In this document: positions 1,683 to 17,440 of the stretch, piece by piece | How the letters are laid out: every line of letters starts with the position of its first letter | Numbering within the stretch: the stretch's first letter is position 1 | Origin: Polaromonas sp. | GTDB taxonomy: Bacteria > Pseudomonadota > Gammaproteobacteria > Burkholderiales > Burkholderiaceae_C | Direction: 5' to 3' | Assembly (NCBI GenBank): GCA_026786065.1 | Contig: JAJAYS010000292.1 | Location: forward strand, 1-18,267 | Length of the DNA stretch: 18,267 nt | Translations under genes and position numbers: made by a program | The notes under the pieces: generated by a model | Databases searched by the model: none | Told to the model about the DNA's origin: nothing | Seen by the model: only the letters and a program-made list of their open reading frames with translations

Positions 1683-1705
1683 CCGACCCGGTCTGTGACG
1701 GTCGG
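1683..1705 (+). terminator. Possible weak hairpin after bactofilin gene
   Basis: CCGACC (1683-1688) pairs with GGTCGG (1700-1705) around an 11-base loop. There is no T-run, so it is at best a weak or factor-assisted terminator or an mRNA-stabilising stem. The rest of the 1651-1824 gap shows nothing I recognise apart from the erpA ribosome binding site CAGGAG at 1813-1818. Confidence 0.25.
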
Positions 1706-1824
1706 GTTCCATCGCCGCCGACCGTGGCACAGCCGCACGGGGCGGGGCCGTCTTTACACGCAAGGGGTCCCGGGTTGCTGCCGGTGCGTTACCATTGCAC
1801 TTTGCCCAGTTTCAGGAGTTTTTC

Positions 1825-2190: not shown

Positions 2191-2213
2191 GCCGACACCC
2201 TACCGACAAAGTA

Positions 2214-2237
2214 AAAAACCGCCTTCGGGCGGTTTTT
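2214..2237. terminator. Bidirectional terminator between erpA and anmK
   Basis: A perfect 10-bp stem, AAAAACCGCC with GGCGGTTTTT, closes a TTCG tetraloop at 2224-2227. The A-run on the left and T-run on the right make it work for both converging genes, erpA (+) and anmK (-). Confidence 0.93.
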
Positions 2238-2262
2238 GCTTTTTGGGGGGCGAATTCGACCA

Positions 2263-2310
2263 GACTCGCATTCTGATTTACAGCGGGATTCACAGCCGGA
2301 TTTACCCAGG
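2263..2310. repeat. Four degenerate 12-bp tandem repeats
   Basis: Four consecutive 12-mers begin with GA(T/C)T: GACTCGCATTCT, GATTTACAGCGG, GATTCACAGCCG and GATTTACCCAGG. They lie in the gap between the terminator and the anmK 3' end. No gene runs through them. A minisatellite remnant is the simplest reading; the first unit is the most divergent. Confidence 0.55.
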
Positions 2311-2338
2311 AGTTGCCAGCGGCAATTCAAATCCGATT

Positions 2339-3520
2339 TCAGGCCAGATAAATCGCCCCCAACACCCGCGCTCCGGCAGCGCCGGTGACGCTGGGCAGGT
2401 TGCCGGTCCGGCCCTGGATGGTTTGGCGGGCCAGCCAGGCGAAGGCGGCGGCTTCGACCTGCAGCGGCGGCAACCCGTGTTCAGCAGATGACGCCACCGC
2501 CACACCCGGCAGGCTGGCTTGCAGCCGCGTCATCAGGTGGGTGTTGAAGGCACCGCCTCCACAGACGATCAGCCTGTCGCTATTTTTTTGATAGCTGCTA
2601 ATTCCCGTTAAACATGGCTGAACCGTGAATTCGGCCAGGGTATTTTGAACGTCCCGGGGATTGCGTGAGGCAAAGGGCTTCAGCTTCGCGGCCAGCCAGT
2701 CGGTGCTGAAGAGGTCGCGGCCGGTGCTCTTGGGCGGGGCTTTGGCAAAGTAGGGCTCGTCCAAAAGATCGACGAGCAGCTCGGGAATCAGCACGCCGCC
2801 AGCCGCCCAGGCACCGACGTCGTCATACGACTGGCCGAGGTGCTGCTGGCACCAGGCGTCCATCAGGGCGTTGCCAGCGCCGCAGTCAAAGCCGAGCACG
2901 GCACCGCCGGACGACGCCGGCGGCAGCAGCGTCAGGTTGGATATGCCCCCCAAGTTCAATACCGCGACCGCCGCGTCGGGCTGCGAAAAAAGGTACTGAT
3001 GAAAGCCGGGTGCCAGCGGTGCGCCCTGGCCGCCAGCGGCGAGGTCGCGGCTGCGGAAATCGGCAACCACCGTCAGGCCGGTCAACTCGGCCAGCCGCGA
3101 CGGGTTGCCCAACTGCAGGGTGTAGCTCTGGTCGCCGCCACACGATGCGCCGGACGCCCGCCCACCAGGCGGCTGGTGGCGCACGGTCTGGCCGTGCGCG
3201 CCTATAGCCACGACCTGCCGGGCCTGAATGCCGCTGACCTGCGCTGTCTGCAGCAGGCTGTGAACCACGCCGGCATAGGCTGCGGCCAGCCTGTTGCCGG
3301 CCAGCGCCGCGCGGTGCAGTTCGTTGTGCGACGGTGAATTGAGCGCCAGCAACTCAGCCCGAAACCCGACATCGAACGCGGCGCTGCTTGCCGCCAGCAC
3401 CTTCAGCCTCTGCGCGGGGGCGGCGGACGGTGTGCTGTCGTCGGGTACGAAAGCGGCCAGTACGCCATCGACACCGTCGAGCGAGGTGCCCGACATCAGG
3501 CCGATATAGAACTCAGTCAT
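2339..3520 (-). CDS. anmK: Anhydro-N-acetylmuramic acid kinase AnmK
   Basis: Cytoplasmic peptidoglycan-recycling enzyme that opens the 1,6-anhydro ring of anhydroMurNAc and phosphorylates it to MurNAc-6-phosphate. The 393-residue product has the family landmarks: the N-terminal phosphate loop MSGTSLDGVD (residues 9-18), GAHGQTVRH (about 108-115), the DFRSRDLAAGGQGAPL block (about 154-169), LNLGGISNLT (about 189-197), FDCGAGNALMD (about 211-221) and VCGGGAFN (about 319-326). ATG at 3520 is preferred over the TTG at 3538 because the conserved N-terminus starts there. Residues about 303-315 (CLTGISSYQKNSD) are encoded by a copy of the dispersed repeat described separately and replace a helix preceding the GGG motif. 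It lies downstream of the M23 peptidase gene on the same strand. Confidence 0.95.
   Translation of the reverse strand: MTEFYIGLMSGTSLDGVDGVLAAFVPDDSTPSAAPAQRLKVLAASSAAFDVGFRAELLALNSPSHNELHRAALAGNRLAAAYAGVVHSLLQTAQVSGIQARQVVAIGAHGQTVRHQPPGGRASGASCGGDQSYTLQLGNPSRLAELTGLTVVADFRSRDLAAGGQGAPLAPGFHQYLFSQPDAAVAVLNLGGISNLTLLPPASSGGAVLGFDCGAGNALMDAWCQQHLGQSYDDVGAWAAGGVLIPELLVDLLDEPYFAKAPPKSTGRDLFSTDWLAAKLKPFASRNPRDVQNTLAEFTVQPCLTGISSYQKNSDRLIVCGGGAFNTHLMTRLQASLPGVAVASSAEHGLPPLQVEAAAFAWLARQTIQGRTGNLPSVTGAAGARVLGAIYLA
2579..2622 (+). repeat. Dispersed repeat, copy A (inside anmK)
   Basis: Reads GCTAT, seven bases, ATAGCTGCTAA, then TTCCCGT and AAACATGGCTGAA. The GCTAT start, TAGCTGCT block, CCCGT block and AACATGGCT tail match copy C (14991-15037); the first half matches copies B and D. 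It runs antisense to anmK and is read through in frame. Confidence 0.75.
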
Positions 3521-3566
3521 GCGGGAAGGCTGCCGCAACCGGTGCGACCTGCAAGGCAGGTACGGG

Positions 3567-4931
3567 CTATTCGGCCCGTGTCTGAGTGATGGTCGAGGCG
3601 GCGAGCAACTGGTTTCTCACGCCGTTGGCCAGCTGGGTGAACACCGGCATTGCCGCTGCCGGAACCGGCACGACTTCGCTTTGCTTTGCCATGGTCATCG
3701 GGTCCTGTTGCACGCCATTGACGCGGAATTCGAGGTGCAGGTGCGGGCCGGTGGACCAGCCGGTAGAGCCGACCAGGCCGATGGTGTCGCTCTGGTTGAC
3801 ATGCTGGCCTTCGCGCACCAGGATTTTGCTCAGGTGAGCGTAAACCGTCTCGTGGTTATTCCGGTGTTTGACGAAAACCACATTGCCATAGCCGTTTTGA
3901 ACCCCGGCGAAGCTCACCACGCCGTCGCCGATGGTGCGGGCCGGCGTGCCGGTTGGGGCGGCGAAGTCGGTGCCCAAGTGGGCGCGCCACTTTTGCAGAA
4001 CAGGGTGCATGCGCATCGAGAAACCGCTGGTTATACGCGAAAACTCCAGCGGCGAGCCCAGATACGCCCGGCGCAGGCTTTTGCCTTCAAGCGAGTAGTA
4101 ACCGCCTTTGAGCGGCGTGCCACTCGCGTCCTTGCCAGCAGGCTGAAACCACATCGCCTGATGGGTTTTGCCGGAGTTGACGAATTCGGCCGAAAGCACC
4201 CGTCCGGGGCGCAGCGGCTCGCCGTCGGCTTCCAGGGTTTCATAGACCACGTTGAAGTGGTCTCCCTTGCGCAGCGCCTGGCGGAAATCGATTTCGCTCG
4301 AAAAAATCTCGGCAAGCTGCACTGCAACGGTATCTGGAATGCGGGCCTGGTCGGTGGCCGCGAACAGCGAGGTCTGGATGCTGCCGCTGGCGAGCTGCGC
4401 GGTGCTGGTGTAAGGGGCGGTTTCAACACGGGCGGTAAAACCGGCGCCGCTGCGCTCGACCACCAGCCGGTTGAACAGCGTGGCGTTGTCGGTGGCCCAG
4501 CGCATGCTGAGCTTGACGAGCTGCTGGTTGTCACTGGCTTCGGCGATCACGGTTTTGCCGGGGCGCCCTGCCAGAATCAGTTGGGCTTGCGGGTCACGCC
4601 GCAAAAAGGCAACGGCCGCCGGATCGCTGATGTTCAGGCGCCACAGCAGCGCCTCGGCGGTGTCGCTGCTGCGGGTGGTTTCGGTGCGGAAAAGGTTGAA
4701 ACGAAAATCGGCCAGGCTGTCAAGTTGCGCCGTGGTTGGGGCTACTTCGATCGTCTCGACGATCTGGCGAACCGGCAGGTCGGCGGCGTCGGGCGCGAGC
4801 GGAGCCACGCCGAAGGCCGTCACTCCGGTGCCCAGAAGCAGCACCGCAAGCGCCACCGTCACGCGCTGTGAGTGCTGTTGCAACTGCGCCCGCAACAACG
4901 GTCCAGAAATAAACAGATAGGGAAGGGGCAA
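3567..4931 (-). CDS. M23 family metallopeptidase, membrane anchored (LytM type)
   Basis: Periplasmic murein endopeptidase-like protein, or a degenerate activator of one. From the proposed start it is 454 residues: a hydrophobic segment at about 24-45 ([20 protein letters not shown]), a long OapA/LysM-like central region, then a LytM domain with H319 and D322 of HxxxD (HLGTD), H366 in YAHL, and H397/H399 in HLHLE. All zinc and catalytic residues are present, so it should be active. No ATG begins the frame. I prefer TTG at 4931, which has AGGA six bases upstream; a GTG at 5048 and a TTG at 4898 are alternatives, so the first 50 or so residues are uncertain. Divergent from tyrS and upstream of anmK; the pair suggests wall turnover plus recycling. 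Confidence 0.88.
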
Positions 4932-5122
4932 GAGAATTCCTGAAATCAAAACGGCGGCGGCGCGGAAGCTGGCGAGCGGGGCCAGGGAACGACGGCCGGG
5001 TGTCAAAAGGTCCGCCCTTGCTATGCTCAAGAGCAAATTGCAGGCCACCTAAAATGGGCGGCGGCGGACAAAAGAGTTGGATTATAGAGGCCACTTTTTA
5101 CCCCACCCGGCAAAAAATCCTT

Positions 5123-6355
5123 ATGAATCAAGAACTTGTTACGGAATTTACCGCATCCGACCGGGTGCGCGAGGCCCTCGCGGTGTCGCTGCGCGGCTGC
5201 GATGAGCTGCTGCCCGAAGCCGAATGGCTGAAAAAACTGGTCCGCAGCGAGGCCACCGGCACCCCGCTGCGCATCAAACTGGGCCTGGACCCGACCGCCC
5301 CCGACATTCATGTCGGACACACGGTGGTGCTGAACAAAATGCGGCAGCTACAGGATCTGGGCCACAGCGTGATTTTCCTGATCGGCGACTTCACGACGCT
5401 GATCGGCGACCCCTCCGGCCGAAACACCACCCGGCCACCGCTGAGCCGCGAGCAAATCGAAGCCAATGCTCAGACCTACTACCGGCAGGCCAGCCTGGTG
5501 CTGGACCCGGCCCGAACCGAGATTCGTTACAACAGCGAATGGAGCGACCCGCTAGGGGCGAGGGGCATGATCGAACTGGCGGCCAAATACAACGTCGCCC
5601 GCATGATGGAGCGGGACGACTTCAGCCGGCGCTTCAAGGCCGGCCAGACCATCAGCGTCCATGAGTTTTTATACCCGCTGATGCAGGGCTATGACTCGGT
5701 GGCGCTCAAGAGCGACCTGGAGCTGGGCGGCACCGACCAGAAATTCAATCTGCTGGTCGGCCGGCATCTGCAGGCTGAATACGGCCAGGAGCCCCAGTGC
5801 ATCCTGACGATGCCGCTGCTCGAAGGGCTGGATGGCGTCGAAAAAATGTCGAAAAGCAAAAACAATTACATCGGCATCTCGGAAGACCCCAACAGCATGT
5901 TCGCCAAGGTGCTGAGCATTTCCGACGTGCTAATGTGGAAGTGGTACACGCTGCTGTCCTTCAAAACTGAGGCAAACATCGTCGCGCTGAAGGCCGAAGT
6001 CGAAGGCGGGCGCAACCCGAAAGACGCCAAGGTCGCGCTGGCCAAAGAGATCACTGCGCGCTTTCATTCGCCAGCGGCGGCCGACGCGGCCGAGCAGGAC
6101 TTCACCAACCGCAGCCAGGGCGGCGTGCCCGACGAGATTGCCGAGGTAACGCTGGCTGGCGCGCCTATGGGCGTTGCCGCGCTGCTGAAGGCGGCCGGGC
6201 TGGCACCATCGGGCAGCGAAGCCTCCCGGCTGATCGACGGCGGCGGGGTGCGCATCGATGGCGGCGTGGTCAGCGACAAGGCCTTGAAGCTGGCTGCGGG
6301 CAGCTATGTGCTGCAGGTCGGCAAACGGCGTTTTGCCAGGGTCACGCTGGCCTGA
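5123..6355 (+). CDS. tyrS: Tyrosyl-tRNA synthetase
   Basis: Class I aminoacyl-tRNA synthetase charging tRNA-Tyr. The 410-residue product has the HIGH-type signature as HVGH (residues 63-66), the [13 protein letters not shown] loop (about 88-100), QGYDSVAL and GGTDQKFN in the tyrosine pocket (about 188-209), and the KMSKS loop at 241-245. A C-terminal S4 RNA-binding domain runs from about 345 ([17 protein letters not shown]). The sequence resembles the TyrRS subtype common in betaproteobacteria. ATG at 5123 is chosen because family similarity begins there; the frame is open upstream but the leader does not look like protein. The Shine-Dalgarno is weak. Confidence 0.97.
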
Positions 6356-6416
6356 GCCTGCGCGCCGCACTGGCGCTACGATGGACAGAACTTTCTTTTT
6401 TTCGAGACGCTGGCTC

Positions 6417-7331
6417 ATGCCTTTTTTGTCCCTGCAGGCCCTGACGCCCCAGCGCCTGCTGAAGGCGTCTATCGGCGTCGCCGTGCTCACCATCGTGCTG
6501 AAAACCTGGGCTTGGTACATCACCGACTCGGTGGGGCTGCTGTCGGACGCGATGGAATCGTTCGTCAACCTGGCCAGCGCGATGTTCGGGCTGGCGATGG
6601 TCACCATCGCCCAGCGGCCGGCCGACGACGACCACCCCTACGGCCACCACAAGGCAGAGTACTTTTCCTCGGGCTTCGAGGGCGCGCTCATCATCGCCGC
6701 AGCGCTCGCCATCATCTGGGCTGCGGGGCACAGGTTGATCAATCCCCAGCCAATACAGCAGGTCGGCTGGGGCTTGGGCCTGTCGGTCATCAGTTCGGCC
6801 TTCAACGGCTTGCTGGCCTGGGCGATGTTTTCGTCGGCCAGGGTGCATCGCTCGATGGCCTTGCAGGCCGGCGCCAAGCACCTTGTCACCGATGTCTGGA
6901 CCTCGGTTGGCGTGGTTGTCGGCATCACGGCCGTCGCGCTGACCGGCTGGCTGTGGCTCGATGCAGTGGTGGCCATCGGCGTGGCGCTGAATATTTTGCG
7001 CGAGGGCCTTCACCTGGTTTGGCGCTCGTCGCAGGGTCTGATGGACGAGGCGGTCGAGCCTGAGGTGCTGGATGAGATCAAAAAGACGCTGCAAGGCTTT
7101 GAGCACCCTACCATCCGCTTCGACCACCTGGCGACGCGGCGTTCTGGCAAGCGGCGCTTTGTCGATTTGCACATGCACATGCCGCCTGCGTGGTCGCTGG
7201 GCCGGGCGGCGGCGGTGCGGGCCAGTGTCGAGCAGGCGCTGATGAGCGCCGTGCCCGGTCTGCGGGCGACGATTCAATTGCTCCCCTCCGACGTCGAATC
7301 GCATTTCGACGCCGAGAGGGATTTGATTTGA
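6417..7331 (+). CDS. Cation diffusion facilitator family transporter
   Basis: Inner-membrane divalent-metal/proton antiporter of the CDF family, exporting a metal such as Zn, Fe, Mn or Co; the substrate cannot be set from sequence. About 304 residues. Several hydrophobic spans are visible (ASIGVAVLTIVLKTWAW, ALIIAAALAIIWAAG, GLGLSVISSAFNGLLAWAMF, VGVVVGITAVALTGWLWL), with the family signature SVGLLSDAMESFVNLAS in TM2, the HPYGHHKAEYFSSGFEG loop and the HLVTD metal site (HxxxD) in TM5. The cytoplasmic C-terminal ferredoxin-like domain follows (FVDLHMHMP). ATG at 6417 fits family N-termini; ATG at 6381 would add 12 residues. It follows tyrS by about 60 bases and may be co-transcribed. Confidence 0.92.
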   Translation: MPFLSLQALTPQRLLKASIGVAVLTIVLKTWAWYITDSVGLLSDAMESFVNLASAMFGLAMVTIAQRPADDDHPYGHHKAEYFSSGFEGALIIAAALAIIWAAGHRLINPQPIQQVGWGLGLSVISSAFNGLLAWAMFSSARVHRSMALQAGAKHLVTDVWTSVGVVVGITAVALTGWLWLDAVVAIGVALNILREGLHLVWRSSQGLMDEAVEPEVLDEIKKTLQGFEHPTIRFDHLATRRSGKRRFVDLHMHMPPAWSLGRAAAVRASVEQALMSAVPGLRATIQLLPSDVESHFDAERDLI

Positions 7332-7388
7332 TCGGCAGTAACCGTAACCGGCCCGGTGAGCACTTCAAATAAAGGGAGAACATAGCGC

Positions 7389-8384
7389 ATGGCGATTCGG
7401 TTCATTTCATCCGTGACGCCCGGTGTGGGTGACGCCTTCCACATGCTGGGCGGGGCGCTGCTCGGTAACCAGGCGTCTGCTGGTCTGCCAGGGGGGGCGC
7501 TGCAACACGTGTGTGCCCCCTTGCTGGGCGTGGTGCAAGACGCACTCAGTGAGGCTTGGGTGACCGACTCGATGCCGCAGGCGGGCCACGCTGATGGTGT
7601 CAACTGGCGGCGCAGCGGTGATGTGCTCTATGGGGTGATCGAGCTCGACGAGCGCGGCACCACCGCAGAGCCCAGCCTGCCAACCCTGCAGGCGTTGAGT
7701 GAACAAGCCTATGCAAGTGTTTTTCGCTTGCTGGATGCACAGGGGTTGCCGCACTTATGGCGGGTCTGGAATTACATGGCCGACATCCATGGGCAAGCCG
7801 GTGGGCTCGAACGCTACCGCCAGTTCAATCTGGGCCGCGGCGATGCTTTTCTCAAGAATGCGCGCGCTGTAGTGGGGCGGGTACCCGCGGCCTGCGCCAT
7901 TGGCGTGGGCAGCGGTCCGCTGTCAATTGCTTTTCTGGCCGGCGCCACACCGGCCTTGTCGATTGAAAATCCGCGCCAGGTCAGTGCCTATGACTACCCG
8001 GTGGAATATGGGCCGCGAAGCCCGACGTTTTCACGCGCTGCGCTGGTGTATCCACCGGGGCAGGAGTTTCTTTTCATTTCAGGAACGGCCAGCATCGTGG
8101 GCCACCGCAGCATGCACGGTGGTGACGTGGCCGCCCAGTGTCGGGAGACGATGGACAACATCGCCGCGGTGGTCACCGAAGCCAATCGCCGCGGTCGAAA
8201 TGGTCCGTTTGCCTTGGGGGACCTGTCCTACCGTGTCTATGTCCGGCACGCAGCCGACCATCCGCTGGTGCAGGACAGCCTGGCCGCGCGGGTCGGCGCC
8301 GTACCGGTGGTGTATGTGCAAGCCGATATCTGTCGCGGTGAGCTGCTGGTCGAAGTCGAGGCCATGGGTTTGCGCCGCATCTGA
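7389..8384 (+). CDS. Chorismatase, XanB2/Hyg5/FkbO family (pteridine-dependent dioxygenase-like)
   Basis: Chorismatases convert chorismate to hydroxybenzoates (XanB2: 3- and 4-hydroxybenzoate; Hyg5: 3-hydroxybenzoate) or to a dihydroxy-diene acid (FkbO). The 331-residue product shows the family blocks: HLWRVWNYMADIH (122-134), YRQFNLGR (143-150), AIGVGSGPLSIAFLAG (170-185), IENPRQVSAYDYP (192-204), YGPRSPTFSRA (207-217), FISGTASIVGHRSMHGGD (229-246) and DICRGELLVEVEA (313-325). The N-terminal 60 residues are less conserved. GGGAG lies ten bases before the ATG at 7389. No aryl-polyene, xanthomonadin or polyketide genes surround it, so a role in supplying 4-hydroxybenzoate for ubiquinone, as shown for XanB2 in Xanthomonas, is a reasonable inference. 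Subtype (XanB2 versus Hyg5 or FkbO) is not certain. It converges on ybeY 30 bases downstream. Confidence 0.85.
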   Translation: MAIRFISSVTPGVGDAFHMLGGALLGNQASAGLPGGALQHVCAPLLGVVQDALSEAWVTDSMPQAGHADGVNWRRSGDVLYGVIELDERGTTAEPSLPTLQALSEQAYASVFRLLDAQGLPHLWRVWNYMADIHGQAGGLERYRQFNLGRGDAFLKNARAVVGRVPAACAIGVGSGPLSIAFLAGATPALSIENPRQVSAYDYPVEYGPRSPTFSRAALVYPPGQEFLFISGTASIVGHRSMHGGDVAAQCRETMDNIAAVVTEANRRGRNGPFALGDLSYRVYVRHAADHPLVQDSLAARVGAVPVVYVQADICRGELLVEVEAMGLRRI

Positions 8385-8414
8385 CTACCTGGCGCTGGAG
8401 CCGGGTGGTCCGCG

Positions 8415-8876
8415 TTATCCGCGCTGATACGGGTCCGGTTGGCCCAGCCCGGCGAGTATTGCGATCTCCCGCGCTTCCATCGCCTCGGCCTCAGCCGCGC
8501 TGGTTTCATGGTCCCAGCCTTGCGCGTGCAGCGTGCCATGCACCAGCAGATGCGCATAGTGCGCCTGCAGCGTTTTGCTGTTTTCTTTCGCCTCGCGCGC
8601 GATCACCGGCGCGCACAGCACCAGGTCGGCCGTGACGACCGGTTGCTGCGTGTAGTCGAAGGTCAGCACATTGGTGGCGTGGTCTTGCTGGCGGTAGCTG
8701 CGGTTGAGCGCCAGGCCTTCGTCGGCACCGACGATGCGCACCGTGATCTCGGCGTCGCACTCCAGCGCGTGGCGAATCCACCGCCGCACGCCGTGGCGCG
8801 GCAGCGCAGCGCGGTGCAGGGCCGCGTCGGCCAGCTCGCCGAACTGCAGCGAAAGCTGCAAACTTTTAAGAGCCAT
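8415..8876 (-). CDS. ybeY: Endoribonuclease YbeY (16S rRNA maturation)
   Basis: Zinc-dependent single-strand endoribonuclease involved in 16S rRNA 3'-end maturation and 70S ribosome quality control. The product is 153 residues, the family's usual length. The zinc motif HGTLHAQGWDH gives H113, H117 and H123, and the conserved NRSYRQQDHATNVLTFDY segment (58-75) precedes it. The start overlaps the end of phoH by 11 bases, the classic phoH-ybeY pairing, and no strong Shine-Dalgarno is visible, so translational coupling is likely. The bases just upstream of the start come from dispersed repeat copy B. No corC gene follows, unlike many proteobacteria; a convergent chorismatase gene takes that place. 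Confidence 0.96.
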   Translation of the reverse strand: MALKSLQLSLQFGELADAALHRAALPRHGVRRWIRHALECDAEITVRIVGADEGLALNRSYRQQDHATNVLTFDYTQQPVVTADLVLCAPVIAREAKENSKTLQAHYAHLLVHGTLHAQGWDHETSAAEAEAMEAREIAILAGLGQPDPYQRG

Positions 8877-9882
8877 TTCGGCTTTTAACCCTTGAAATAC
8901 GGGCGTTAGCAGCTACTTTTTTTATAGCGACTGGCGCGGCGTCCGGGGCCTGCTCCGGTGCGGTTTTGTCGTAGGCATCGACGATGCGCGCCACCAGCGG
9001 GTGCCGCACGACGTCGGCGATGGTCAGCCGGGTGATCGCAATGCCGGCCACGCGTCTAAGCACGCGCTCGGCATCAATGAGGCCGCTGAGCTGCGTGCGC
9101 GGCAAATCGACCTGGCTGACGTCACCGGTGACCACCGCCTTGGCGCCGAAGCCGATGCGCGTCAGAAACATTTTCATCTGCTCGGGCGTGGTGTTTTGCG
9201 CCTCGTCGAGGATCACGAAAGCGTGGTTCAGCGTGCGGCCGCGCATGAAGGCCAGCGGCGCAATCTCGATCTGCTGGCGCTCGAAGGCTTTTTGCACCCG
9301 CTCGAAACCCATCAGCTCATATAGCGCGTCGTAGAGCGGCCGCAAGTAGGGGTCCACCTTCTGACTCAGGTCGCCTGGCAAAAAACCCAGGCGCTCGCCG
9401 GCCTCAACCGCGGGTCGCGTCAGCACGATGCGCTGGACCGCGCTGCGCTCGAGCGCATCGACCGCACAGGCCACCGCCAGGTAGGTTTTGCCGGTGCCGG
9501 CCGGGCCGATGCCGAAGGTGATGTCGTGCGCCCTGATGTTGTCAAGGTAGGCCGCCTGATTGGCGGTGCGCGCGCGCAGGTCGGCCCGGCGCGTCGAAAG
9601 GCCAGCGCCGTCGGCCGCCGCGCCCATTGCCGTGTTGCCCGCCAGCATCAACTGCACGGTTTCTTCTTCGATGGGTCGTTGCGCCATTTCATACATCGCC
9701 TGCAGCACCTCCAGCGCCTGGGTGGCCGCCGCTTTCGGCCCGTCGATCTTGAACTGCTCGAAGCGGTGCGCAATCGTCACCGGCAGCGCCTGCTCGATGG
9801 TGCGCAAGTGCGCGTCGGTCGGGCCGCACAGGTTGGCCATGCGGGTGTTGTTGGGCGGGGTGAAGGTGTGGCGAAGAATCAA
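8866..9882 (-). CDS. PhoH family ATPase (PhoL)
   Basis: Cytoplasmic P-loop ATPase of the PhoH/PhoL type, genetically linked to YbeY and RNA metabolism. From TTG at 9882 it has 338 residues: Walker A GPAGTGKT at 126-133, a second motif RPAVEAGERLGFLPGD at 156-171, Walker B VILDE at 223-227, and VTGDVSQVDLP at 251-261. I choose TTG 9882 because MILRHTFTPPNNTR resembles the conserved betaproteobacterial PhoH N-terminus, which an ATG start at 9840 would lose; TTG 9918 is also possible. The last 20 residues (from VAIKKVAANAR) are encoded by dispersed repeat copy B and look like a late extension. It overlaps ybeY and is divergent from ruvA. Confidence 0.93.
   Translation of the reverse strand: MILRHTFTPPNNTRMANLCGPTDAHLRTIEQALPVTIAHRFEQFKIDGPKAAATQALEVLQAMYEMAQRPIEEETVQLMLAGNTAMGAAADGAGLSTRRADLRARTANQAAYLDNIRAHDITFGIGPAGTGKTYLAVACAVDALERSAVQRIVLTRPAVEAGERLGFLPGDLSQKVDPYLRPLYDALYELMGFERVQKAFERQQIEIAPLAFMRGRTLNHAFVILDEAQNTTPEQMKMFLTRIGFGAKAVVTGDVSQVDLPRTQLSGLIDAERVLRRVAGIAITRLTIADVVRHPLVARIVDAYDKTAPEQAPDAAPVAIKKVAANARISRVKSRNGS
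8881..8928 (-). repeat. Dispersed repeat, copy B (3' end of phoH, upstream of ybeY)
   Basis: On the minus strand it reads GCTAT, seven A, GTAGCTGCTAA, CGCCCGT, ATTTCAAGGG, TTAAAAGCC. It encodes PhoH residues 319-334 in the frame AIKKVAANARISRVKS and ends five bases before the ybeY ATG. The GTAGCTGC and CGCCCGT blocks are shared with copies C and D. Confidence 0.8.
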
Positions 9883-9909
9883 GGAGGCTCGCTTGGCGGA
9901 TGGTGGCTC

Positions 9910-9924
9910 GGACAGCAATTGTCC
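9910..9924. promoter_or_regulatory. Inverted repeat between phoH and ruvA
   Basis: GGACA-GCAAT-TGTCC is a perfect 5-bp inverted repeat with a 5-bp spacer in the divergent intergenic region. It could be an operator for one or both genes. It does not match the LexA consensus CTGT-N8-ACAG, so SOS control of ruvA is not supported. Confidence 0.25.
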
Positions 9925-9973
9925 GCCTGATTTTGAGCGGCGTGCGCCGGGAGCCCACTGCTAAGATTTGCCG

Positions 9974-10546
9974 ATGATTGGACGCCTGACTGGCCTTTTG
10001 GCCGAAAAAAATCCGCCCGAAATCCTGCTCGATTGCAACGGCGTCGGCTACGAAGTGCTGGTGCCTATGAGCACCTTCTACAACCTGCCGGGGCTGGGTG
10101 AAAAGGTCAGCCTGCTGACGCATTTGGTGGTGCGTGAAGACGCGCAAATCCTCTACGGCTTCGGGCAGGCCAGCGAGCGCGCCGCTTTTCGCCAGCTCAT
10201 CAAGATCGCCGGCGTCGGGCCGCGCACCGCGCTCAGCGTGCTGAGCGGCCTGAGCGTCGAAGAACTCTCGCAAGCCGTGACCGCGCAGGAAGCCGGCCGC
10301 ATCATCAAGGTGCCCGGCATCGGCAAAAAAACCGCCGAGCGGCTGCTGCTCGAACTCAAGGGCAAGCTCGGCGCCGACATGGGCATCACCGTCAGCCTGG
10401 CCGACGGTGCCCAGTCCGACATCCTGCAGGCGCTGGTGGCACTCGGCTACAGCGACCGCGATGCCGCGCTGGCGTTGAAGGCGCTGCCGAAGGAGGTCGG
10501 CGTCAGTGACGGCATCAAGCTGGCTTTGAAGGCGCTGGCGAAGTAA
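9974..10546 (+). CDS. ruvA: Holliday junction branch migration protein RuvA
   Basis: Junction-binding subunit that clamps a Holliday junction and loads two RuvB rings. The 190-residue product has the OB-fold domain I ([12 protein letters not shown] to about residue 62), the double helix-hairpin-helix domain II ([18 protein letters not shown] about 75-92 and [18 protein letters not shown] about 109-126), a short acidic-to-neutral linker, and domain III that contacts RuvB (about 142-190, [22 protein letters not shown]). ATG at 9974 is the family start; the TTG six bases upstream is not needed. ruvB is not adjacent: a toxin-antitoxin pair of about 0.6 kb separates them. Confidence 0.97.
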
Positions 10547-10577
10547 TTTTTCAGGCTTCTCGGGCACTGGACGCGAC

Positions 10578-10602
10578 GGACTAAGTCCACTAGACTAAGT
10601 TC
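10578..10602 (+). promoter_or_regulatory. Probable antitoxin operator
   Basis: A perfect palindrome GGACT-A-AGTCC (10578-10588) is followed, 14 bp centre to centre, by an imperfect copy AGACT-A-AGTTC (10592-10602) that abuts the antitoxin ATG. Two helically spaced half-similar palindromes directly at the start codon are the usual autoregulatory operator layout of Phd/YefM operons. Confidence 0.6.
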
Positions 10603-10839
10603 ATGCAAATCGTCAACATTCATGAAGCCAAAACCCACCTTTCCAGGCTTGTCGAGCGGGCTGCGCAGGGCGAGCCCTTCGTGATTGCGAAAGCGGGTCG
10701 GCAGCTTGTGAAAGTCGTCGCCTTGCAAAGTGATGTCGTGCCGCCGCGCAGAACCGGCTTCATGGCCGGGCAGATAGCGGTTCCCGACAATTTCGACCAG
10801 ATGGGGTCGAGCGACATGGCGCAACTGTTCAGCGCATGA
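10603..10839 (+). CDS. Phd/YefM-family antitoxin
   Basis: Small DNA-binding antitoxin, 78 residues, expected to neutralise the PIN toxin encoded next and repress its own operon. The N-terminal fold is typical: MQIVNIHEAKTHLSRLVERAAQGEPFVIAKAGRQ (about 1-34), with the NIHEAKTHLSRL helix and the GEPFVIAKAG hairpin. The C-terminal half (RRTGFMAGQIAVPDNFDQM) is the flexible toxin-binding tail. The stop overlaps the toxin start (ATGA, 10836-10839). The palindrome pair just upstream is the likely operator. It sits 56 bases after ruvA on the same strand. Confidence 0.9.
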   Translation: MQIVNIHEAKTHLSRLVERAAQGEPFVIAKAGRQLVKVVALQSDVVPPRRTGFMAGQIAVPDNFDQMGSSDMAQLFSA

Positions 10840-11222
10840 GGCTGCTGCTCGACACCCACCTTCTGCTGTGGGCGGCGGCCACGCCAGAGCGGCTTTCAGC
10901 GCCGGCGATGGAGCTGATTGAAAACCCCGCCAACGAACTGCTTTTCAGCGCCGCCAGCATCTGGGAAATAGTCATCAAGTCGGGTCTTGGGCGGGAGGAT
11001 TTTCGCGTCGATGCGCGCGAGCTGCGCCAGGCCCTGCTGGCCAATGGCTACCAGGAGCTGGCTGTGTCCGCGCTCCATGCCTTGACGCTGGCCGATCTGC
11101 CGACGATTCACAAAGACCCGTTTGACCGGATCTTGCTCGCCCAGGCCATGCGCGACGAGCTGACGCTGATGACCGCCGACGCCGCGCTGGCGCATTACCC
11201 CGGCCCGATCATCCGGGTGTGA
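10836..11222 (+). CDS. PIN-domain toxin (VapC-like ribonuclease)
   Basis: Predicted Mg-dependent ribonuclease toxin, 128 residues. The four acidic PIN residues are present: D6 in [11 protein letters not shown]44 in [11 protein letters not shown]97 in [11 protein letters not shown] and D115 in MTADAAL. The [10 protein letters not shown] start and the [12 protein letters not shown] block place it in the PIN group usually paired with Phd-like antitoxins. It overlaps the antitoxin gene by four bases, and its stop codon lies five bases before the ruvB ATG, so toxin and ruvB share a transcript and probably couple translationally. RNA target unknown. Confidence 0.9.
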
Positions 11223-11227
11223 CTCTC

Positions 11228-12289
11228 ATGACCATCCACACCGACGATTTTTCCGCCGCCGACCTGCCGCCATCCCGGCGCGTGATTTCGGCGGCGACGG
11301 CTTCGCCGCAAGAAGAAGCCGTTGAGCGCGCGCTGCGGCCCAAGCTGTTTGACGACTACGTCGGCCAGACCAAGATCAGGGAGCAGTTGCAGATCTTCAT
11401 AGGCGCAGCCAGGAAGCGCGCCGAAGCGCTGGACCACGTGCTGCTGTTCGGCCCGCCCGGCCTGGGCAAGACCACGCTTTCCCACATCATTGCGCACGAG
11501 CTCGGCGTCAACATGCGCCAGACCTCCGGCCCGGTGCTGGAAAAGCCGAAAGACCTGGCCGCGCTGCTGACCAACCTCGAAAAAAACGACGTGCTGTTCA
11601 TCGACGAGATTCACCGGTTAAGCCCGGTTGTTGAAGAAATCTTGTACCCCGCACTGGAGGACTACCAGATCGACATCATGATCGGCGAAGGCCCGGCGGC
11701 GCGCTCGATCAAGCTCGACTTGCAGCCCTTCACGCTGGTCGGCGCCACCACCCGCGCCGGCATGCTGACCAACCCGCTGCGCGACCGCTTCGGCATCGTT
11801 GCGCGGCTGGAGTTCTACACCCCTGAAGAGCTGGCGCGCATCGTCAGCCGCAGCGCCAGGCTGCTAAACGTGACGACGGATGTTGACGGCGGCTTCGAGA
11901 TCGCCCGGCGCTCACGCGGCACACCGCGCATTGCCAACCGCCTGCTGCGGCGGGTGCGCGACTATGCGGACGTCAAAGGTACCGGCGTCATTACGCTGGA
12001 CATAGCCAACAAGGCGCTCGCCATGCTGGATGTCGATCCGCAAGGCTTCGACGTGATGGACCGCAAGCTGTTAGAGGCTGTGATCCACCGCTTCGACGGC
12101 GGCCCGGTCGGGCTGGACAACATCGCCGCCAGCATCGGCGAAGAGCGGGACACGATCGAAGACGTGATCGAGCCCTATCTGATCCAGCAGGGCTATTTGC
12201 AGCGCACACCGCGCGGGCGGATTGCCACGCTGGCGGCGTATCGGCATCTGGGGGTGGCGCCGCCGGCAAATGGCACCGAACTTTTTTAG
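11228..12289 (+). CDS. ruvB: Holliday junction branch migration helicase RuvB
   Basis: Hexameric AAA+ motor that drives branch migration with RuvA. The 353-residue product has Walker A GPPGLGKT (75-82), Walker B IDEIHR (125-130), sensor 1 GATTRAG (172-178), the arginine-finger region LRDRFG (184-189), sensor 2 region [16 protein letters not shown] (about 232-247), and the C-terminal winged-helix domain ([16 protein letters not shown]). ATG at 11228 gives the usual MTIHTDDF start; a GTG at 11219 overlapping the toxin stop would add three residues. It follows the toxin gene with a five-base gap, so its expression may depend on the toxin-antitoxin promoter, the ruvA promoter or both. Confidence 0.98.
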
Positions 12290-12346
12290 GCGGGACTGCC
12301 TGCCTTTCCCCCCTTAGCCAGCCACGACGCACGGCGCTGCGGCGCA

Positions 12347-12374
12347 GCCTGAGGGGCCGTCGCCCCGGCCAGGC
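12347..12374. terminator. GC-rich hairpin between converging ruvB and PLP-enzyme gene
   Basis: A nested stem: GCCTG (12347-12351) with CAGGC (12370-12374), and GGGGC (12353-12357) with GCCCC (12362-12366) around a CGTC loop. An alternative pairing uses CCCCTTAG (about 12309-12316) with CTGAGGGG (12349-12356). No T-run follows, so terminator function is only suggested by its place between convergent genes. Confidence 0.35.
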
Positions 12375-13556
12375 TCAAGTCAGCGCGCCCCGCGCATCAA
12401 CCGCAATAATTCGCTCGACCACGCCTTTGCGCAGCCCGCCGCTGACGCCGATCATCACGTCGTGCAGGTTCACCGTAGGGTCACAGTGGCCGGGAATCAG
12501 CCACAGCGTGCGGCCCAGGGCGGGCAGGTGCTGGTTGCCGTCTGGCGCACGCACAATGCCGTGCTCGTCGCCGCCGTTGGCGTACTCGAGGCGGGCTTCG
12601 CCCTCGAAGGTGTGGACCCGCGGCAGGCCCGAATCGATGGCGTGGCTCTTGTGACCGGCATCGCACACGACATGGCCGGCATGTGTGCTGGTGACCTGGG
12701 TTTTCACGAACAGCGCGTGCTCGAATTGCGGCTGGGCGGCCTCTGGCTCGTTTTGCGCGTAGTCGGCGTCCATGAACAAAAACGAGCCGGCCTGCAACTC
12801 GCCGTACACGCCGCTGGCCGCTTCCAGCAACATCGTTCCTGTGCCGGCGCCAGTGATCAGGCCGACCTTCAGGCCTTGCGATTCGAGCAGTGTCCGGCTG
12901 AGTACGACCGCCTCGATGGCGGATGCAATGGCGTCACGCCTCGCCTGGGCGGTGCGCAAATGCTGGGCCTTGCCGTGGTAGCCCTGCAAGCCGGCAAATC
13001 GCAGGGCAGGGTGTTTGCGGATTTCCAGCGCCAGATTCAGCACCGCCGGCCCAGGCTCGACGCCGCAGCGCCCCTGGCCAACGACGATTTCGACGAAGAC
13101 ATTGATCACACTGCCTACACCTCTGCCGCCGCGCGCGTCCAGCATGGCTTTGGCCAGCCGCGTCACGCCTTCGTGGCTGTCCACGGCAATGGCCAGCTGG
13201 CCGCCCAGCGCCGTCAAGCGCCCGCTCAGCGCCGCCACCCGGGCCAGCTTGCGCGGTGCAATCACCTGGTTGGAGATATACACGTCGTGCACGCCGCCCG
13301 CCACCATGATTTCGGCCTCGGCGGTTTTTTGCACGCAGACCCCCACCGCCCCGGCTTTCATCTGGACTTTGGCCAGCGCGGCGCTCTTGTGCATCTTGGC
13401 GTGCGGTCGCCAGCCGATGCCGTGCTTTTTGGCGAATTCGCTCATGCGCACCAGGTTGCGCTTCATGGCGTCGAGGTCGATCACCAGCGCTGGCGTGTCG
13501 ATGGCGTCGCAGGGTTTGCCGACCAGCTCCGCCTTGATGGAACGAAGTGGGGTCAT
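12375..13556 (-). CDS. DSD1-family PLP enzyme (D-threonine aldolase-like)
   Basis: Fold-type III (alanine-racemase fold) PLP enzyme of the D-serine dehydratase/D-threonine aldolase group. The 393-residue product has RPHAKMHKS (50-58) with the PLP lysine K54, the glycine-rich phosphate site GLITGAGTGT (about 234-243), and a C-terminal metal site HCDPT (H357 and D359). A His-x-Asp pair is what D-threonine and D-3-hydroxyaspartate aldolases use, whereas eukaryotic D-serine dehydratases have His-x-Cys, so a Mn- or Mg-type aldolase is more likely than a Zn dehydratase. Substrate is not proven. Its start overlaps the stop of the upstream histidine phosphatase gene by four bases (ATGA), so they form an operon. 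Confidence 0.88.
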   Translation of the reverse strand: MTPLRSIKAELVGKPCDAIDTPALVIDLDAMKRNLVRMSEFAKKHGIGWRPHAKMHKSAALAKVQMKAGAVGVCVQKTAEAEIMVAGGVHDVYISNQVIAPRKLARVAALSGRLTALGGQLAIAVDSHEGVTRLAKAMLDARGGRGVGSVINVFVEIVVGQGRCGVEPGPAVLNLALEIRKHPALRFAGLQGYHGKAQHLRTAQARRDAIASAIEAVVLSRTLLESQGLKVGLITGAGTGTMLLEAASGVYGELQAGSFLFMDADYAQNEPEAAQPQFEHALFVKTQVTSTHAGHVVCDAGHKSHAIDSGLPRVHTFEGEARLEYANGGDEHGIVRAPDGNQHLPALGRTLWLIPGHCDPTVNLHDVMIGVSGGLRKGVVERIIAVDARGALT

Positions 13557-14239
13557 GGAAAAGTCGGTGCGCCGGTTGGATTGGGTGGTGCCGGGCTCGG
13601 GCGCAGTCCGTCGTCCCGTGTGTCGTCGTCGAGGTGGCGCGTGTCGGCCCAGCCGACCAGTGAGAATCCGCCGGCACTCCAGAGCAGGCGGTTGATGGCC
13701 GTGTTGCGCAGTTGCCAGGTGCGCGGCGCGGTGATGTCGAGCCGCATCGCGGCCCGGTACAGCACATCCATCACGCCGCCGTGGCTGACCAGCGCAATCA
13801 GCTTGCCCGGATGCCGCGCCGCCAGCCGGGCGGCTGCGGCGACGACGCGCTCGCGCAGCATGGTGAGCGACTCGCCGCCGTGCGGTGTGAAATGCGGGTC
13901 ACGCGGGCGCCAGCGGCGGGCCTGTTCGGGCAGCGCGGCTTCGATTTCGGCGAAGGTGCGGCCCTCGAAATCGCCGAAGGCGCGCTCGCGCAGCGTCGGC
14001 TCGCGGCCTACCGGCAAGCCCAGGGTATTGCCCAGATGCTGGGCGGTGTCCCAGGCGCGCGACAGGTCGCTGGCGTACACCGCAGTGACGGGTTCGCCGA
14101 CCAGCGCCTGCGCCATGCGCGCAGCCTGCACCCGACCGGTTTCGTTCAACGGAATGTCGAGCTGGCCCTGGATGCGGGTGTCCACGTTCCAGCTGGTTTC
14201 GCCGTGGCGAATCGCGATGATGCGGGTCGGCTCAATCAT
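13553..14239 (-). CDS. Histidine phosphatase family protein (phosphoglycerate mutase-like)
   Basis: Cofactor-independent-looking member of the dPGM/histidine phosphatase superfamily. The 228-residue product starts with the catalytic RHGETSWN (R11, H12), has R61 in ASDLSRAWDTA, the LRERAFGDFEG block with E85 as likely acid, and H153 in LVSHGG. Substrate cannot be read from the sequence; GpmB-like or alpha-ribazole-phosphatase-like annotations are common for such proteins. The last 25 residues, from about DTRHLDDDTRDD onward and rich in Pro, are disordered. It is the first gene of the pair with the D-threonine-aldolase-like enzyme, with ATGA overlap. Confidence 0.92.
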   Translation of the reverse strand: MIEPTRIIAIRHGETSWNVDTRIQGQLDIPLNETGRVQAARMAQALVGEPVTAVYASDLSRAWDTAQHLGNTLGLPVGREPTLRERAFGDFEGRTFAEIEAALPEQARRWRPRDPHFTPHGGESLTMLRERVVAAAARLAARHPGKLIALVSHGGVMDVLYRAAMRLDITAPRTWQLRNTAINRLLWSAGGFSLVGWADTRHLDDDTRDDGLRPSPAPPNPTGAPTFP

Positions 14240-14288
14240 GTGGCTTCATGCGGGTGCAGCTTTTGGGTGTTGCGGGAGCGGAGCGGGG

Positions 14289-14339
14289 TCGCCCTTCGAT
14301 ACCCCTGTCCTGAGCTTGACGAAGGGTCAGGGCGAACGG
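14289..14339. repeat. Extragenic palindromic repeat
   Basis: Overlapping inverted repeats: TCGCCCT (14289-14295) with AGGGCGA (14329-14335), and CCCTTCG (14292-14298) with CGAAGGG (14320-14326), enclosing TGTCCTGAGCTTGACG. The CCTTCG / CCTGAGCTTG / CGAAGGG pattern resembles a dispersed intergenic repeat that I recall from many proteobacterial genomes. It fills the 150-base gap between the phosphatase and lipoprotein genes. It may act as a terminator-like or mRNA-stabilising stem. Confidence 0.6.
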
Positions 14340-14389
14340 CAGGGCGGGCATTCGACAGCCAGTGCGAACGACTGCGCAATCGCATGGGG

Positions 14390-15049
14390 CTAGCGCGGTA
14401 TGTCCACGTTGACGCGCCGCGTGCCCGGCGGCGGTTCCGGAAAACCGAGCAGCGCCGAGTCGAGCATCGCTGGCAGCACCGCCTGCGTGTCGCTCCATAC
14501 GCCTTCGTGCAGCGCCCGGGTCTCATAGCTGACCTGCTGGGTTGCCAGGTCGCGCATTACGACCGAGACTTCGCGCCGGTAATACGGCTGCGGCAGCCGC
14601 AGCGGAAAGCCGAAACCGAAGCCCAGCGCAGCGCCACGGCTGCCGCCGCCCAGAAAAATACCGGAGCTGACCCCGCCGTAACCGCCGTAGCCGCCCCAAC
14701 CACCGAAGCCGTCGTAGCCAGGACGCTCGCCGACCAGCGTGCTGGCGTTGCCCTGCACGCTGAACCGCGCTGCTTCGGGCCGCAGCTCCAGGCCGACCTT
14801 GGCCAGGGCGGTGCGCGCCAGCGCTTCCACTGCGTCCTGCTGGCTTGGCTCGGTTTGCTGCGATGGCAGACGCTCAAAGCGGTACGGGGTGCCGGGGCCA
14901 GGGGGCGCCGATGACCACCTTGAAAACGCCGAGACGTCGCTGTCCACCAGCCTGACGGTGCCGCAGCCGGCCAGAAGTAGCGCCGCGGTAGCTATCAAAA
15001 ACGTAGCTGCTTGCGCCCGTAAAACATGGCTAAAAGCGGTATTTGACAT
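14390..15049 (-). CDS. DUF4136-type outer-membrane lipoprotein
   Basis: Predicted periplasm-facing lipoprotein of unknown function, 219 residues. A signal peptide ends in the lipobox LLAGC, giving a lipidated C29. The mature part contains the DUF4136-like stretches (VRLVDSDVSAFSRW, DAVEALARTALAKVGLEL, REVSVVMRDLATQQVSYETRALHEG) and a glycine/aromatic-rich segment GFGGWGGYGGYGG followed by GIFLGGG and GAALGFGFGF. ATG at 15049 gives a standard signal peptide; an upstream ATG at 15073 would lengthen the n-region. The hydrophobic core of the signal peptide (residues about 7-20) is encoded by dispersed repeat copy C. It lies 60 bases downstream of ttcA on the same strand. Confidence 0.82.
   Translation of the reverse strand: MSNTAFSHVLRAQAATFLIATAALLLAGCGTVRLVDSDVSAFSRWSSAPPGPGTPYRFERLPSQQTEPSQQDAVEALARTALAKVGLELRPEAARFSVQGNASTLVGERPGYDGFGGWGGYGGYGGVSSGIFLGGGSRGAALGFGFGFPLRLPQPYYRREVSVVMRDLATQQVSYETRALHEGVWSDTQAVLPAMLDSALLGFPEPPPGTRRVNVDIPR
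14991..15037 (+). repeat. Dispersed repeat, copy C (in lipoprotein signal peptide)
   Basis: Reads GCTATC, five A, CGTAGCTGCT, TGCGCCCGT, AAAACATGGCTAAAAGC. The tail AACATGGCT is shared with copy A and the GTAGCTGC / GCGCCCGT blocks with copies B and D. It runs antisense to the lipoprotein gene, which reads it as SHVLRAQAATFLIA. Confidence 0.8.
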
Positions 15050-15109
15050 AATTTTCTGGTGTGGATCTGACATTGGCAAGAGGCGGACGCCGGGCCTTTC
15101 ACCGGCTTT

Positions 15110-16057
15110 TCACAGGCTGTTCAGGTCCACCACGGCAAGCCCGGGCCGGGAGGAAACCAGACCGGGCGCGCTGAATTCTTCGGCATCGAAGGCCTTGTCG
15201 CCGTCGGCGTCGGCCGTGCCTGTGGCCCGGATATTTCTGAAATCGTGCTGTTTGCGGTCCATCAGGTGCGAGGGCACGATGTTCTGCAGGCTGGCGAACA
15301 TGTTCTCTAACCGGCCCGGGAATTTCTTGTCCCATTCGCGCAGCAGATTGCCGACCTGTTTTCTTTGCAGGTTCTCCTGGCTGCCGCACAGCGTGCAGGG
15401 AATGATCGGGAACGCGCGCACCTCGGCCCAACGCGTCAGGTCTTTCTCACACACGTAGGCCATTGGCCGGATCACGATGTTCTTGCCGTCGTCGCTGACC
15501 AGCTTGGGCGGCATGCCCTTCAATTTGGCGGCGAAGAACATGTTGAGAAAAAACGTTTGCAGCATGTCGTCCCGGTGGTGGCCCAGCGCGATCTTGGTCG
15601 CTTTCAACTCGCCGGCCACCCGGTACAAAATGCCGCGCCGCAGCCGGGAGCACAGCGAACACAGGGTTTTGCCCTCGGGGATCACGCGCTTGACGATGCT
15701 GTACGTGTCCTGGTTTTCGATGTGGAAGGGCACGCCGAGTTGCCTCAGGTAGTCGGGCAGGATGTGCTCTGGAAAGCCGGGCTGCTTCTGGTCGAGGTTG
15801 ACGGCGATCAGATCAAAGCGCACCGGCGCACGCGTTTGCAGCTTCAGCAAAATGTCGAGCATCGCGTAGCTGTCTTTGCCGCCAGAAACACACACCATCA
15901 CCTTGTCGCCGGCCTCGATCATGTTGAAGTCCACGATGGCCCGGCCGACCTCGCGGCACAGGCGCTTTTCCAGCTTGTGGTCTTCGCGTTCGATCTTCAT
16001 GACGCTCTGCACCCGCTTTGACGCGGCCTGTTCGTCGTCGGTCCAGATTGCATTCAC
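15110..16057 (-). CDS. ttcA: tRNA 2-thiocytidine(32) synthetase TtcA
   Basis: Thiolates C32 of certain tRNAs using ATP and a [4Fe-4S] cluster. The 315-residue product has the PP-loop SGGKDS (58-63) and the three cluster cysteines: C133 and C136 in [10 protein letters not shown] and C221 in [14 protein letters not shown]. The block [18 protein letters not shown] (about 157-174) is also typical. It starts with GTG at 16057, four bases past the stop of the SDR-FolB gene, giving a tight operon; an ATG at residue 20 would lose conserved sequence. The C-terminal 40 residues ([15 protein letters not shown] onward) are variable. Confidence 0.96.
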
Positions 16058-16061
16058 GCTT

Positions 16062-17414
16062 TCACCACTGTCCTGTCTCGATGCGAATGGCGACTTCGCA
16101 GTCGTTGAAAATCTTTAACTTGGCAATCTTCACCCGCACGCCGACGACGCCGGGCAGCTGCAGCAGCCGGTGCGCCAGCTTGCCGATCAGGCTTTCCAGC
16201 AGATTCACATGCTCGGCGGTGCATTCGGTGATAACGATCTGCCGCACCTTGCGGTAGTCCAGCACATGGCCGATGTCGTCGTCGTGCGGCAGCAGCGGCT
16301 GTGGGCCGAGGTTGAGTTCGGCATCGACCTGGATTGGCTGCGGCGCTGTGCGCTCGTGGTCGAGGATGCCCAGGTTCGCGTCGAAGCGCAGTCCGGTGAT
16401 GGTCAGGGTCTGGTTGCCAGAGGCCTTGTGCGCCGCTGCGGGAGGAGGCGGCGACTGCAGGTCGGACCGGGGTTCGGGTTCGGCTTTGAGTTCGGGCACG
16501 GGGATTTGAAGGCTGGGGGACAGAGCAATAACTGCTTCGCAGTTTTGGTCTATCCCGCCAGCTTGAAGTGTGGGGGACAGAGCAATAATTGCTTCGCAGT
16601 TTTGGTCTATCCCGCCAAGTCTCATGAGAGAAAAGTCGCGCGCGAAGCGCTGCAGGTGCTGGCCGCCATCGACCAGCAGCGTGGTGCCGGTGATCGATGC
16701 GTTGCTCAGCGCGAATTTGACGGTAGCCGCAACATCGGCCGGGGTCGAGGAGCGGCCCAGCGGCGAGAGTTTTTGGAGCGCCTCGAACTCGGCGTCGCTG
16801 AGCAGGGTGCTGGTCAGCGTCAGCCCCGGCGCCACGCCGACCACCCGCACCCGCGGCGCCAGAGCCAGTGCCAGCAGCGTGCCGGCCGTCTCTAACGCCG
16901 CTTTTGACAGCGTATAGCTAAAAAAGTCCGGGTTCGGATTCCAGAGTTTTTGATCCAGCAGGTTGACGACCGCGCCACTGGCATCGCGGGCCGCAAGATG
17001 TTCGTGCAGCGCCTGCGCCAGCAAGATCGCGGCGCCGGTGTTGCTGTGCAGGTGTTTGTCGAGCGCGGCAAAGCCGAAGGTCGCGGCGCTGTCGTACTCA
17101 AAAGTCGAAGCGCTGTTGACGACCGCATCGACCCGGCCAAAGTGCGCCGCCACCTGCGGCAGCAGTGCCCGAACCGCCGTCTCGTCGCTCAAATCACAAT
17201 AAAAAGCGGCGCTGGCTCTTTGTGGACGGGCGCAGGCAGCTACTGTTTCAATAGCGTCTGTGGCCGAATGTCGATAGTGGACGGCGACCCGCCAGCCGGC
17301 GTCGGCCAGCGTCAGGGCGATCTCGCGCCCCAGCCGCCGGGCTGCGCCGGTCACGAGGACAACAGGGGAATCGGACGCAGGGAGCATGGTGCTTTCAGAG
17401 TGGTTTGCCGGCAT
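16062..17414 (-). CDS. Fused pteridine-reductase-like SDR and FolB-like dihydroneopterin aldolase
   Basis: One uninterrupted frame of 450 residues carries two folate/pterin-type domains. Residues about 18-262 are an SDR with the NADP motif TGAARRLG (22-29; the Arg-rich form of FolM/PTR1-type reductases), NSAS at 100-103 and catalytic Y167 and K171 in YTLSK. Residues about 334-450 resemble FolB ([58 protein letters not shown]). Between them are two perfect-frame 19-residue repeats (267-304) and a Pro/Glu-rich linker. Start ATG 17414 or ATG 17387 are both possible; the latter leaves more room for a promoter facing midA. Residues 54-68 derive from dispersed repeat copy D. In related bacteria these are, as I recall, usually separate genes, so the fusion looks recent. 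ttcA follows directly. Confidence 0.85.
16506..16619 (-). repeat. 57-bp tandem duplication in the SDR-FolB linker
   Basis: Two adjacent 57-bp units, 16506-16562 and 16563-16619, differ at about five bases. They share GGGGGACAGAGCAATAA and TGCTTCGCAGTTTTGG and then TCTATCCCGCCA. In the gene's frame each gives 19 residues: [19 protein letters not shown] and [19 protein letters not shown]. The unit's base composition and protein sequence match neither flanking domain. Confidence 0.93.
17211..17255 (-). repeat. Dispersed repeat, copy D (inside the SDR domain)
   Basis: On the minus strand: GCTATTGAAACAGTAGCTGC, CTGCGCCCGT, CCACAAAGAGCCAGC. It matches copies B and C through GTAGCTGC and GCGCCCGT. 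It is read in the same frame as copy B, giving [15 protein letters not shown] beside PhoH's AIKKVAANARISRVKS. Confidence 0.65.
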
Positions 17415-17440
17415 CAATCACCGACAATGCGGCGACCGTT

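Follow-up and report, generated by a model that had tools for sequence, protein, structure and literature searches.

What kind of repeat can occur four times in 18 kb of bacterial DNA, always within or at the end of a protein-coding gene, and be read through each time? The question was raised by a stretch of Polaromonas sp. DNA (assembly GCA_026786065.1, contig JAJAYS010000292.1, positions 1 to 18,267), here called the window at its full length of 18,267 nucleotides, for which the original prediction was a small mobile or recombinogenic element tolerated as protein. All four copies, termed A to D by position, lie where and on the strands described, each with a full span of about 72 bp, and it was confirmed that they belong to a large family, dispersed through the genome and read through as protein. 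With moderate confidence, we regard this family as a long motif of Comamonadaceae akin to the DNA uptake sequences (DUS) of other bacteria, the uptake role being suggested by analogy; the motif behaves like an uptake sequence, and is not claimed to be one.

The motif is abundant, balanced between strands and patchily spread within one bacterial family. Taken alone, the window would hardly have revealed this: the core, allowing up to three mismatches, was found four times against 1.9 expected, and 28 of 200 shuffles reached four, which is not clearly above chance. A search of the whole assembly (2.93 Mb, 396 contigs, 83.6% complete), as proposed with the original prediction, gave counts far above chance, namely 184 matches to the 17-base core at up to one mismatch versus 5 for the reversed control, and 261 sites versus 1 control for a longer, family-wide left pattern at up to three mismatches. 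Forty-one Polaromonas genomes carry from 0 to 626 sites each, and among 150 genomes sampled from the family at least 30 sites are present in 36 (maximum 834), with 0-4 in most others. The genome of Acidovorax temperans DSM 7270, which we take to be the type strain also known as ATCC 49665, holds 414 sites versus 1 control. Forward and reverse totals are balanced in the family sample, in the Polaromonas set and in A. temperans, and runs of one strand among the places listed were given no weight for this reason. Exact matches occur in at least ten genera, those among the matches listed being Polaromonas, Rhodoferax, Acidovorax, Simplicispira, Giesbergeria, Curvibacter, Diaphorobacter, Ottowia, Ramlibacter and Paenacidovorax. 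Beyond the family the motif is nearly absent: for other families of the order, 117 of 120 sampled genomes gave 110 without a site and 7 with one (up to two mismatches). It was found in 3 of 72,556 plasmid records and in none of 50,697 phages, queried with one Acidovorax-type consensus that distant dialects may escape, and in 14 of about 2.9 million viral contigs, counting exact matches only. Dialects are equally apparent. The middle of the motif varies by genus; Acidovorax-like genomes, for example, have CGCTT...AAGCGC there, and many Polaromonas have CGCCCGT. At sites shared between unlike genomes each copy matches the dialect of its own genome (28 of 28 pairs).

Alignment of 32 copies, 31 of them profiled, defines an element of about 68-72 bp. 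From a sharp left edge, (G)TCGCTAY, it passes through an A/T-rich spacer and ATAGCTGCTTACGCCCGT into a right half of weaker conservation that carries a GG...CC dyad, and closes with AT tracts at the right. Copies are mostly single, GC content is about 46% (mean of the profile from genome G013), and the information content is 55-66 bits in the Polaromonas sets. Overlapping inverted motif pairs with a common GCTAT-ATAGC centre were also seen (L196, approximately 7849-7883, and L188), similar to what was reported for Simonsiella, in which DUS pairs overlap (PMC3630211, in part). Since both the left dyad (GCTAT...ATAGC) and the right-hand one can pair, an RNA-level signal such as a terminator, processing hairpin or antisense element was considered. 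It is very improbable: intragenic copies occur in sense and antisense orientation alike, no Rfam family was matched in the window, and the right-hand dyad showed no covariation, its bases being paired within genome sets about as often as the columns predict.

Placement relative to genes was evaluated in a 38-copy sample from the window genome (the window copies and 30 loci chosen because the core matched exactly), in which 16 copies lie within genes, 3 at a gene edge and 19 in intergenic DNA. Two further genomes have 17 of 36 (G013) and 13 of 33 (G023) copies within genes, for an overall intragenic share of about two in five. Genes were called with a simple codon-usage caller that missed at least one coding copy (in folM of G013), which makes the share a minimum. 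Because 82-84% of the same DNA was called coding, intergenic copies are over-represented. The claim that none occur in the gaps therefore holds at best for the window, where copy B lies at a gene edge and copy C probably does. Read-through itself follows a pattern, with two dominant reading frames accounting for 12 of 16, 13 of 17 and 10 of 13 intragenic copies in the window genome, G013 and G023, respectively. Both G013 copies that lie in a frame in which TAGC would be a stop carry GAGC instead.

How the motif came to lie in coding sequence is a point on which a mobile element and an uptake-like motif differ, and the window copies offer two informative sites. Copy A (2574..2645, plus strand) runs antisense within the gene for AnmK, anhydro-N-acetylmuramic acid kinase (2339..3538, minus strand; PF03702); its core, TAGCTGCTAATTCCCGT, has two mismatches, the other three window copies matching the core exactly. 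All 16 Polaromonas AnmK rows align there without a gap, as does the solved AnmK 3qbw from another organism, presumably P. aeruginosa, whose motif content was not checked. Copy D (17189..17260, minus strand) lies in sense orientation in the FolM-like short-chain dehydrogenase part of a gene fused to FolB, dihydroneopterin aldolase (16062..17417, minus strand; PF13561, PF02152). Ten of 12 Polaromonas rows are ungapped at this site, the other two (L096, L092) not covering it, and solved FolM-like proteins differ by gaps of one or two residues. At both sites, codons that resemble the motif in motif-rich species correspond to ordinary, GC-rich ones in several motif-poor species. For copies A and D, the outcome that was set to refute the original prediction was obtained. 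The other two copies decide little. Copy B (8862..8933, minus strand), in sense orientation, occupies the variable C-terminal tail of a PhoH-like ATPase (8866..9918, minus strand; PF02562) and covers the phoH end as well as the beginning of the following gene (8415-8876, minus strand), which its right end touches. Copy C (14986..15057, plus strand) is antisense over the N-terminal signal region of a DUF4136 lipoprotein-like gene (14390..15079, minus strand; PF13590); the true start codon of that gene is uncertain, and copy C probably straddles it, to judge from where orthologues begin. The peptide given for the two sense copies, AI(K/E)(K/T)VAA(N/C)AR, is correct for both.

Orthologues of hosts elsewhere extend this result, and origin in place, with codon-level conservation, holds at most testable coding sites. 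A first test covered 185 site-by-species pairs, scored by the best motif within a 140-residue neighbourhood; 117 pairs scored below 15 (low scores near gene ends being partly cut-off effects), of which 75 were ungapped and two, from one site, were shorter by at least 16 residues. A second test took the motif score at the aligned position itself and demanded 25 residues to either side, which drops PhoH and DUF4136 and leaves 122 pairs from 26 sites, with a motif-less orthologue in 45 pairs (20 sites). These sites were grouped by hand into 11 distinct genes (L091:2057, an antisense frame of AnmK, was merged with it), and in nine of the 11 the length is within three residues of that of motif-less orthologues. 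Compared with solved structures from other organisms, methylcrotonyl-CoA carboxylase beta has no gap in 534 residues and guanine deaminase is ungapped over the element, and two further queries had no match at the cut-off used.

Several sites tell against such an origin, and with it against an uptake-like motif. GlmU has an 11-residue gap relative to its solved structure, located in the element's right half, and 3-hydroxyisobutyryl-CoA hydrolase has small gaps. Among the 45 pairs, 12 (27%) are gapped somewhere within the element window, the rate for control windows in these proteins being 14%, and six, from two genes, lose at least 16 residues, versus 0.2% in controls. The two exceptional genes, both named by eye, are UvrA-like and RlmJ-like, and their motif-bearing segments are longer by at least 12-25 residues than in motif-less relatives. 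In the RlmJ-like gene the motif is carried in a variable Ala/Pro/Lys-rich linker. The UvrA-like gene of G052 (L147:5600-5900) contains a 99-bp in-frame segment, absent from three relatives, that starts within a few bases of the left end of the element and extends about 27 bp past it; this is the strongest candidate for a genuine insertion. Outside genes, 12 intergenic pairs with and without the motif gave a motif-bearing region longer by a median of 50 bp (range -54 to +160), a small and ambiguous set in which some pairs represent one locus twice, from stretches that overlap. Gaps were found in 24% of alignments at Haemophilus uptake signal sequences (USS) by Redfield et al., who concluded that these arose by substitution (PMC1626085, in part). 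Our 27% resembles that figure, and the two long cases exceed the control expectation.

Some of these cases speak for a small mobile element, similar to a miniature inverted-repeat transposable element (MITE), that often inserts in frame and was possibly homogenised later by ectopic gene conversion. A long consensus with a sharp left edge, the UvrA-like segment that starts near that edge, the longer RlmJ-like linker and the longer intergenic regions would all suit it. As a general account it is nevertheless rejected at most sites by the gap tests, nine of 11 coding sites changing by no more than three residues and distant homologues aligning without gaps. Only three of the 12 intergenic pairs differ by 40-100 bp, with no peak at element length; the UvrA-like segment exceeds the element by 27 bp; the left and right edges show no mirror symmetry by eye in the column profile; and plasmids and phages are nearly free of the motif. 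Empty sites lacking exactly the element, the mark of MITEs and of repetitive extragenic palindromic (REP) elements, were not found, the UvrA-like case coming nearest. Rickettsia palindromic elements and MITEs are palindromic, lie in frame in genes and lengthen the host protein by insertion, whereas most testable host proteins here keep their length. We consider a mobile element quite improbable overall, although it stays among the rival explanations. Of the original prediction, then, read-through stands and mobility is unsupported at most testable sites, with insertion possible in the two exceptional genes; should the motif mark DNA for uptake and recombination, "recombinogenic" may hold in an indirect sense.

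An uptake-like motif would be expected to go with the machinery of natural transformation, on which the genomes gave a mixed picture. Standard PilM, taken as a best E below 1e-75 (a cut chosen with the data in view), occurs in 132 of 150 family genomes, and PilM is present in the window genome. At least 30 sites were found in 36 of the 132 genomes with standard PilM versus none of the 18 without, phylogeny being ignored. Within Polaromonas the same threshold is reached by 25 of 27 genomes with PilM versus one of 14 without; the tree placed eight of these 14, and since the placed genomes are one clade plus G019, the contrast amounts to about one event. That clade (G004, G012, G017, G022, G042, G055 and G056) has no standard PilM and 0-4 motif copies. 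G047 and G002 have PilM and carry the motif hardly at all. ComEC is uninformative, as it occurs in all 132 good family genomes; it was not found in the incomplete window genome. A search of 41 genomes for ComEA (TIGR00426) gave no match above the cut-off, and the weaker matches, mostly in open frames of at least 800 residues, look like another helix-hairpin-helix protein.

Transformation experiments by others bear on the same point. Naturally transformable Comamonadaceae include A. temperans, A. facilis and Verminephrobacter eiseniae, and A. temperans gave transformants from own-species DNA only (PMC4212676, in part). In V. eiseniae, transformation was about 10 times lower at a 100-fold excess of salmon DNA, with no further drop up to 1500-fold, and pilus gene disruption caused a strong fall. 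Sequence specificity was suggested by those authors, and the parts of their paper covered here name no sequence.

The likeliest rival is a site for a chromosome-organising or nucleoid protein, its hundreds of copies arising in place and kept up by ordinary selection, and its dialects following changes in the protein. Such a site would also explain the in-place origin, the strand balance, the dialects, the near-absence from plasmids and phages, and the dyad that does not covary, and to that extent it detracts from an uptake role. It appears unlikely to us, in that all seven members that the tree placed in one Polaromonas clade have 0-4 sites, which would make the function dispensable, transformation limited to own-species DNA is reported for a motif-rich species (PMC4212676, in part), and 55-66 bits would exceed the need for locating 300-800 sites.

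Under the uptake-like explanation, the type IV pilus machinery of a competent cell would prefer motif-bearing DNA, and transformation would then swap a resident allele for a better-matching one at the same locus. Copies would accumulate in place, on both strands and in genes as well as gaps, through point mutation and homologous recombination; dialects would drift by lineage with changes of a putative receptor, and the motif would fade in lineages that lose uptake. DNA uptake as the selective agent, a pilus-borne reader protein, and the right-hand dyad read as half-sites are the parts of this scheme that we infer.

Two families, Pasteurellaceae and Neisseriaceae, have been described as strongly preferring certain sequences in DNA uptake (PMC7811141, in part). 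The Pasteurellaceae USS is similar in having a core with AT-rich flanking tracts, in occurring on both strands and in genes and gaps, in its origin by substitution and in its subclade types (PMC1626085, in part). In contrast to USS, the present motif is about 72 bp long, has two dyads (GCTAT...ATAGC at left and the second at right), belongs to another family and is known from sequence alone. Neisseriaceae DUS differ in length, at 10-12 bp, in lacking AT tracts, and in having ComP as receptor where a receptor is only putative here. They share lineage dialects, intragenic and intergenic copies, a one-family range and some overlapping inverted pairs (PMC3630211, in part). BRE, a partly intragenic dispersed repeat of Bordetella and of Comamonadaceae including Polaromonas, is about 90 bp long with a mean GC of 69% in Bordetella, often tandem or resembling variable-number tandem repeats, and was counted at no more than 29 copies (Hot 2011, PMC3110155, in part). 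The motif differs from BRE, as described there, in size, GC content and arrangement, and identity with it was rejected on that description. A survey of titles and abstract starts on uptake sequences and transformation in Comamonadaceae, Betaproteobacteria, Burkholderiales, Acidovorax and Polaromonas revealed, among the titles listed, none describing the motif, and a search with its letters returned one unrelated human-genetics paper only.

By comparison with USS and DUS, other features count against an uptake role as well. The motif is about 5-7 times sparser than USS, with mean spacings of 5.0 and 6.6 kb versus about one copy per kb for USS and DUS, and the even spacing of USS was not seen. 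Perfect copies do not outnumber singly mismatched ones, a looser consensus than in either system, and the motif is long. The own-species limit in A. temperans could also be caused by lack of homology; because of this caveat and the intergenic lengths, the standing of the uptake-like explanation was lowered slightly.

If that explanation is true, a third family would have an uptake preference, in environmental bacteria, with a much longer signal and an independent origin, and this would put to the test the notion that such motifs are written into genomes by uptake bias alone. The motif gives the own-species limit in A. temperans, so far unexplained, a concrete candidate cause, and there would be hundreds of sites where a DNA signal, not the protein, shapes coding sequence. 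A fuller version is put forward tentatively, at somewhat less than an even chance: that this is the DNA self-recognition of a third family, through an uptake sequence of about 70 bp with two dyads and AT tracts, longer than any known, in Comamonadaceae dialects read by a putative and possibly dimeric pilus receptor, which would account for the restriction of transformation to own-species DNA in Acidovorax.

Other repeats were also seen in the window. At 14309-14339, CCTGAGCTTGACGAAGGGTCAGGGCGAACGG may resemble another dispersed repeat of many proteobacterial genomes. Between the FolM-like and FolB parts of the fused gene, the linker contains a 57-bp unit duplicated in tandem and in frame (16506-16617, 94% match), and a similar stretch overlapping this duplication occurs in G020 (L090). 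Further on, a 27-bp tandem repeat of 2.3 copies (79%) lies at 17666-17726, inside an open frame starting at 17405.

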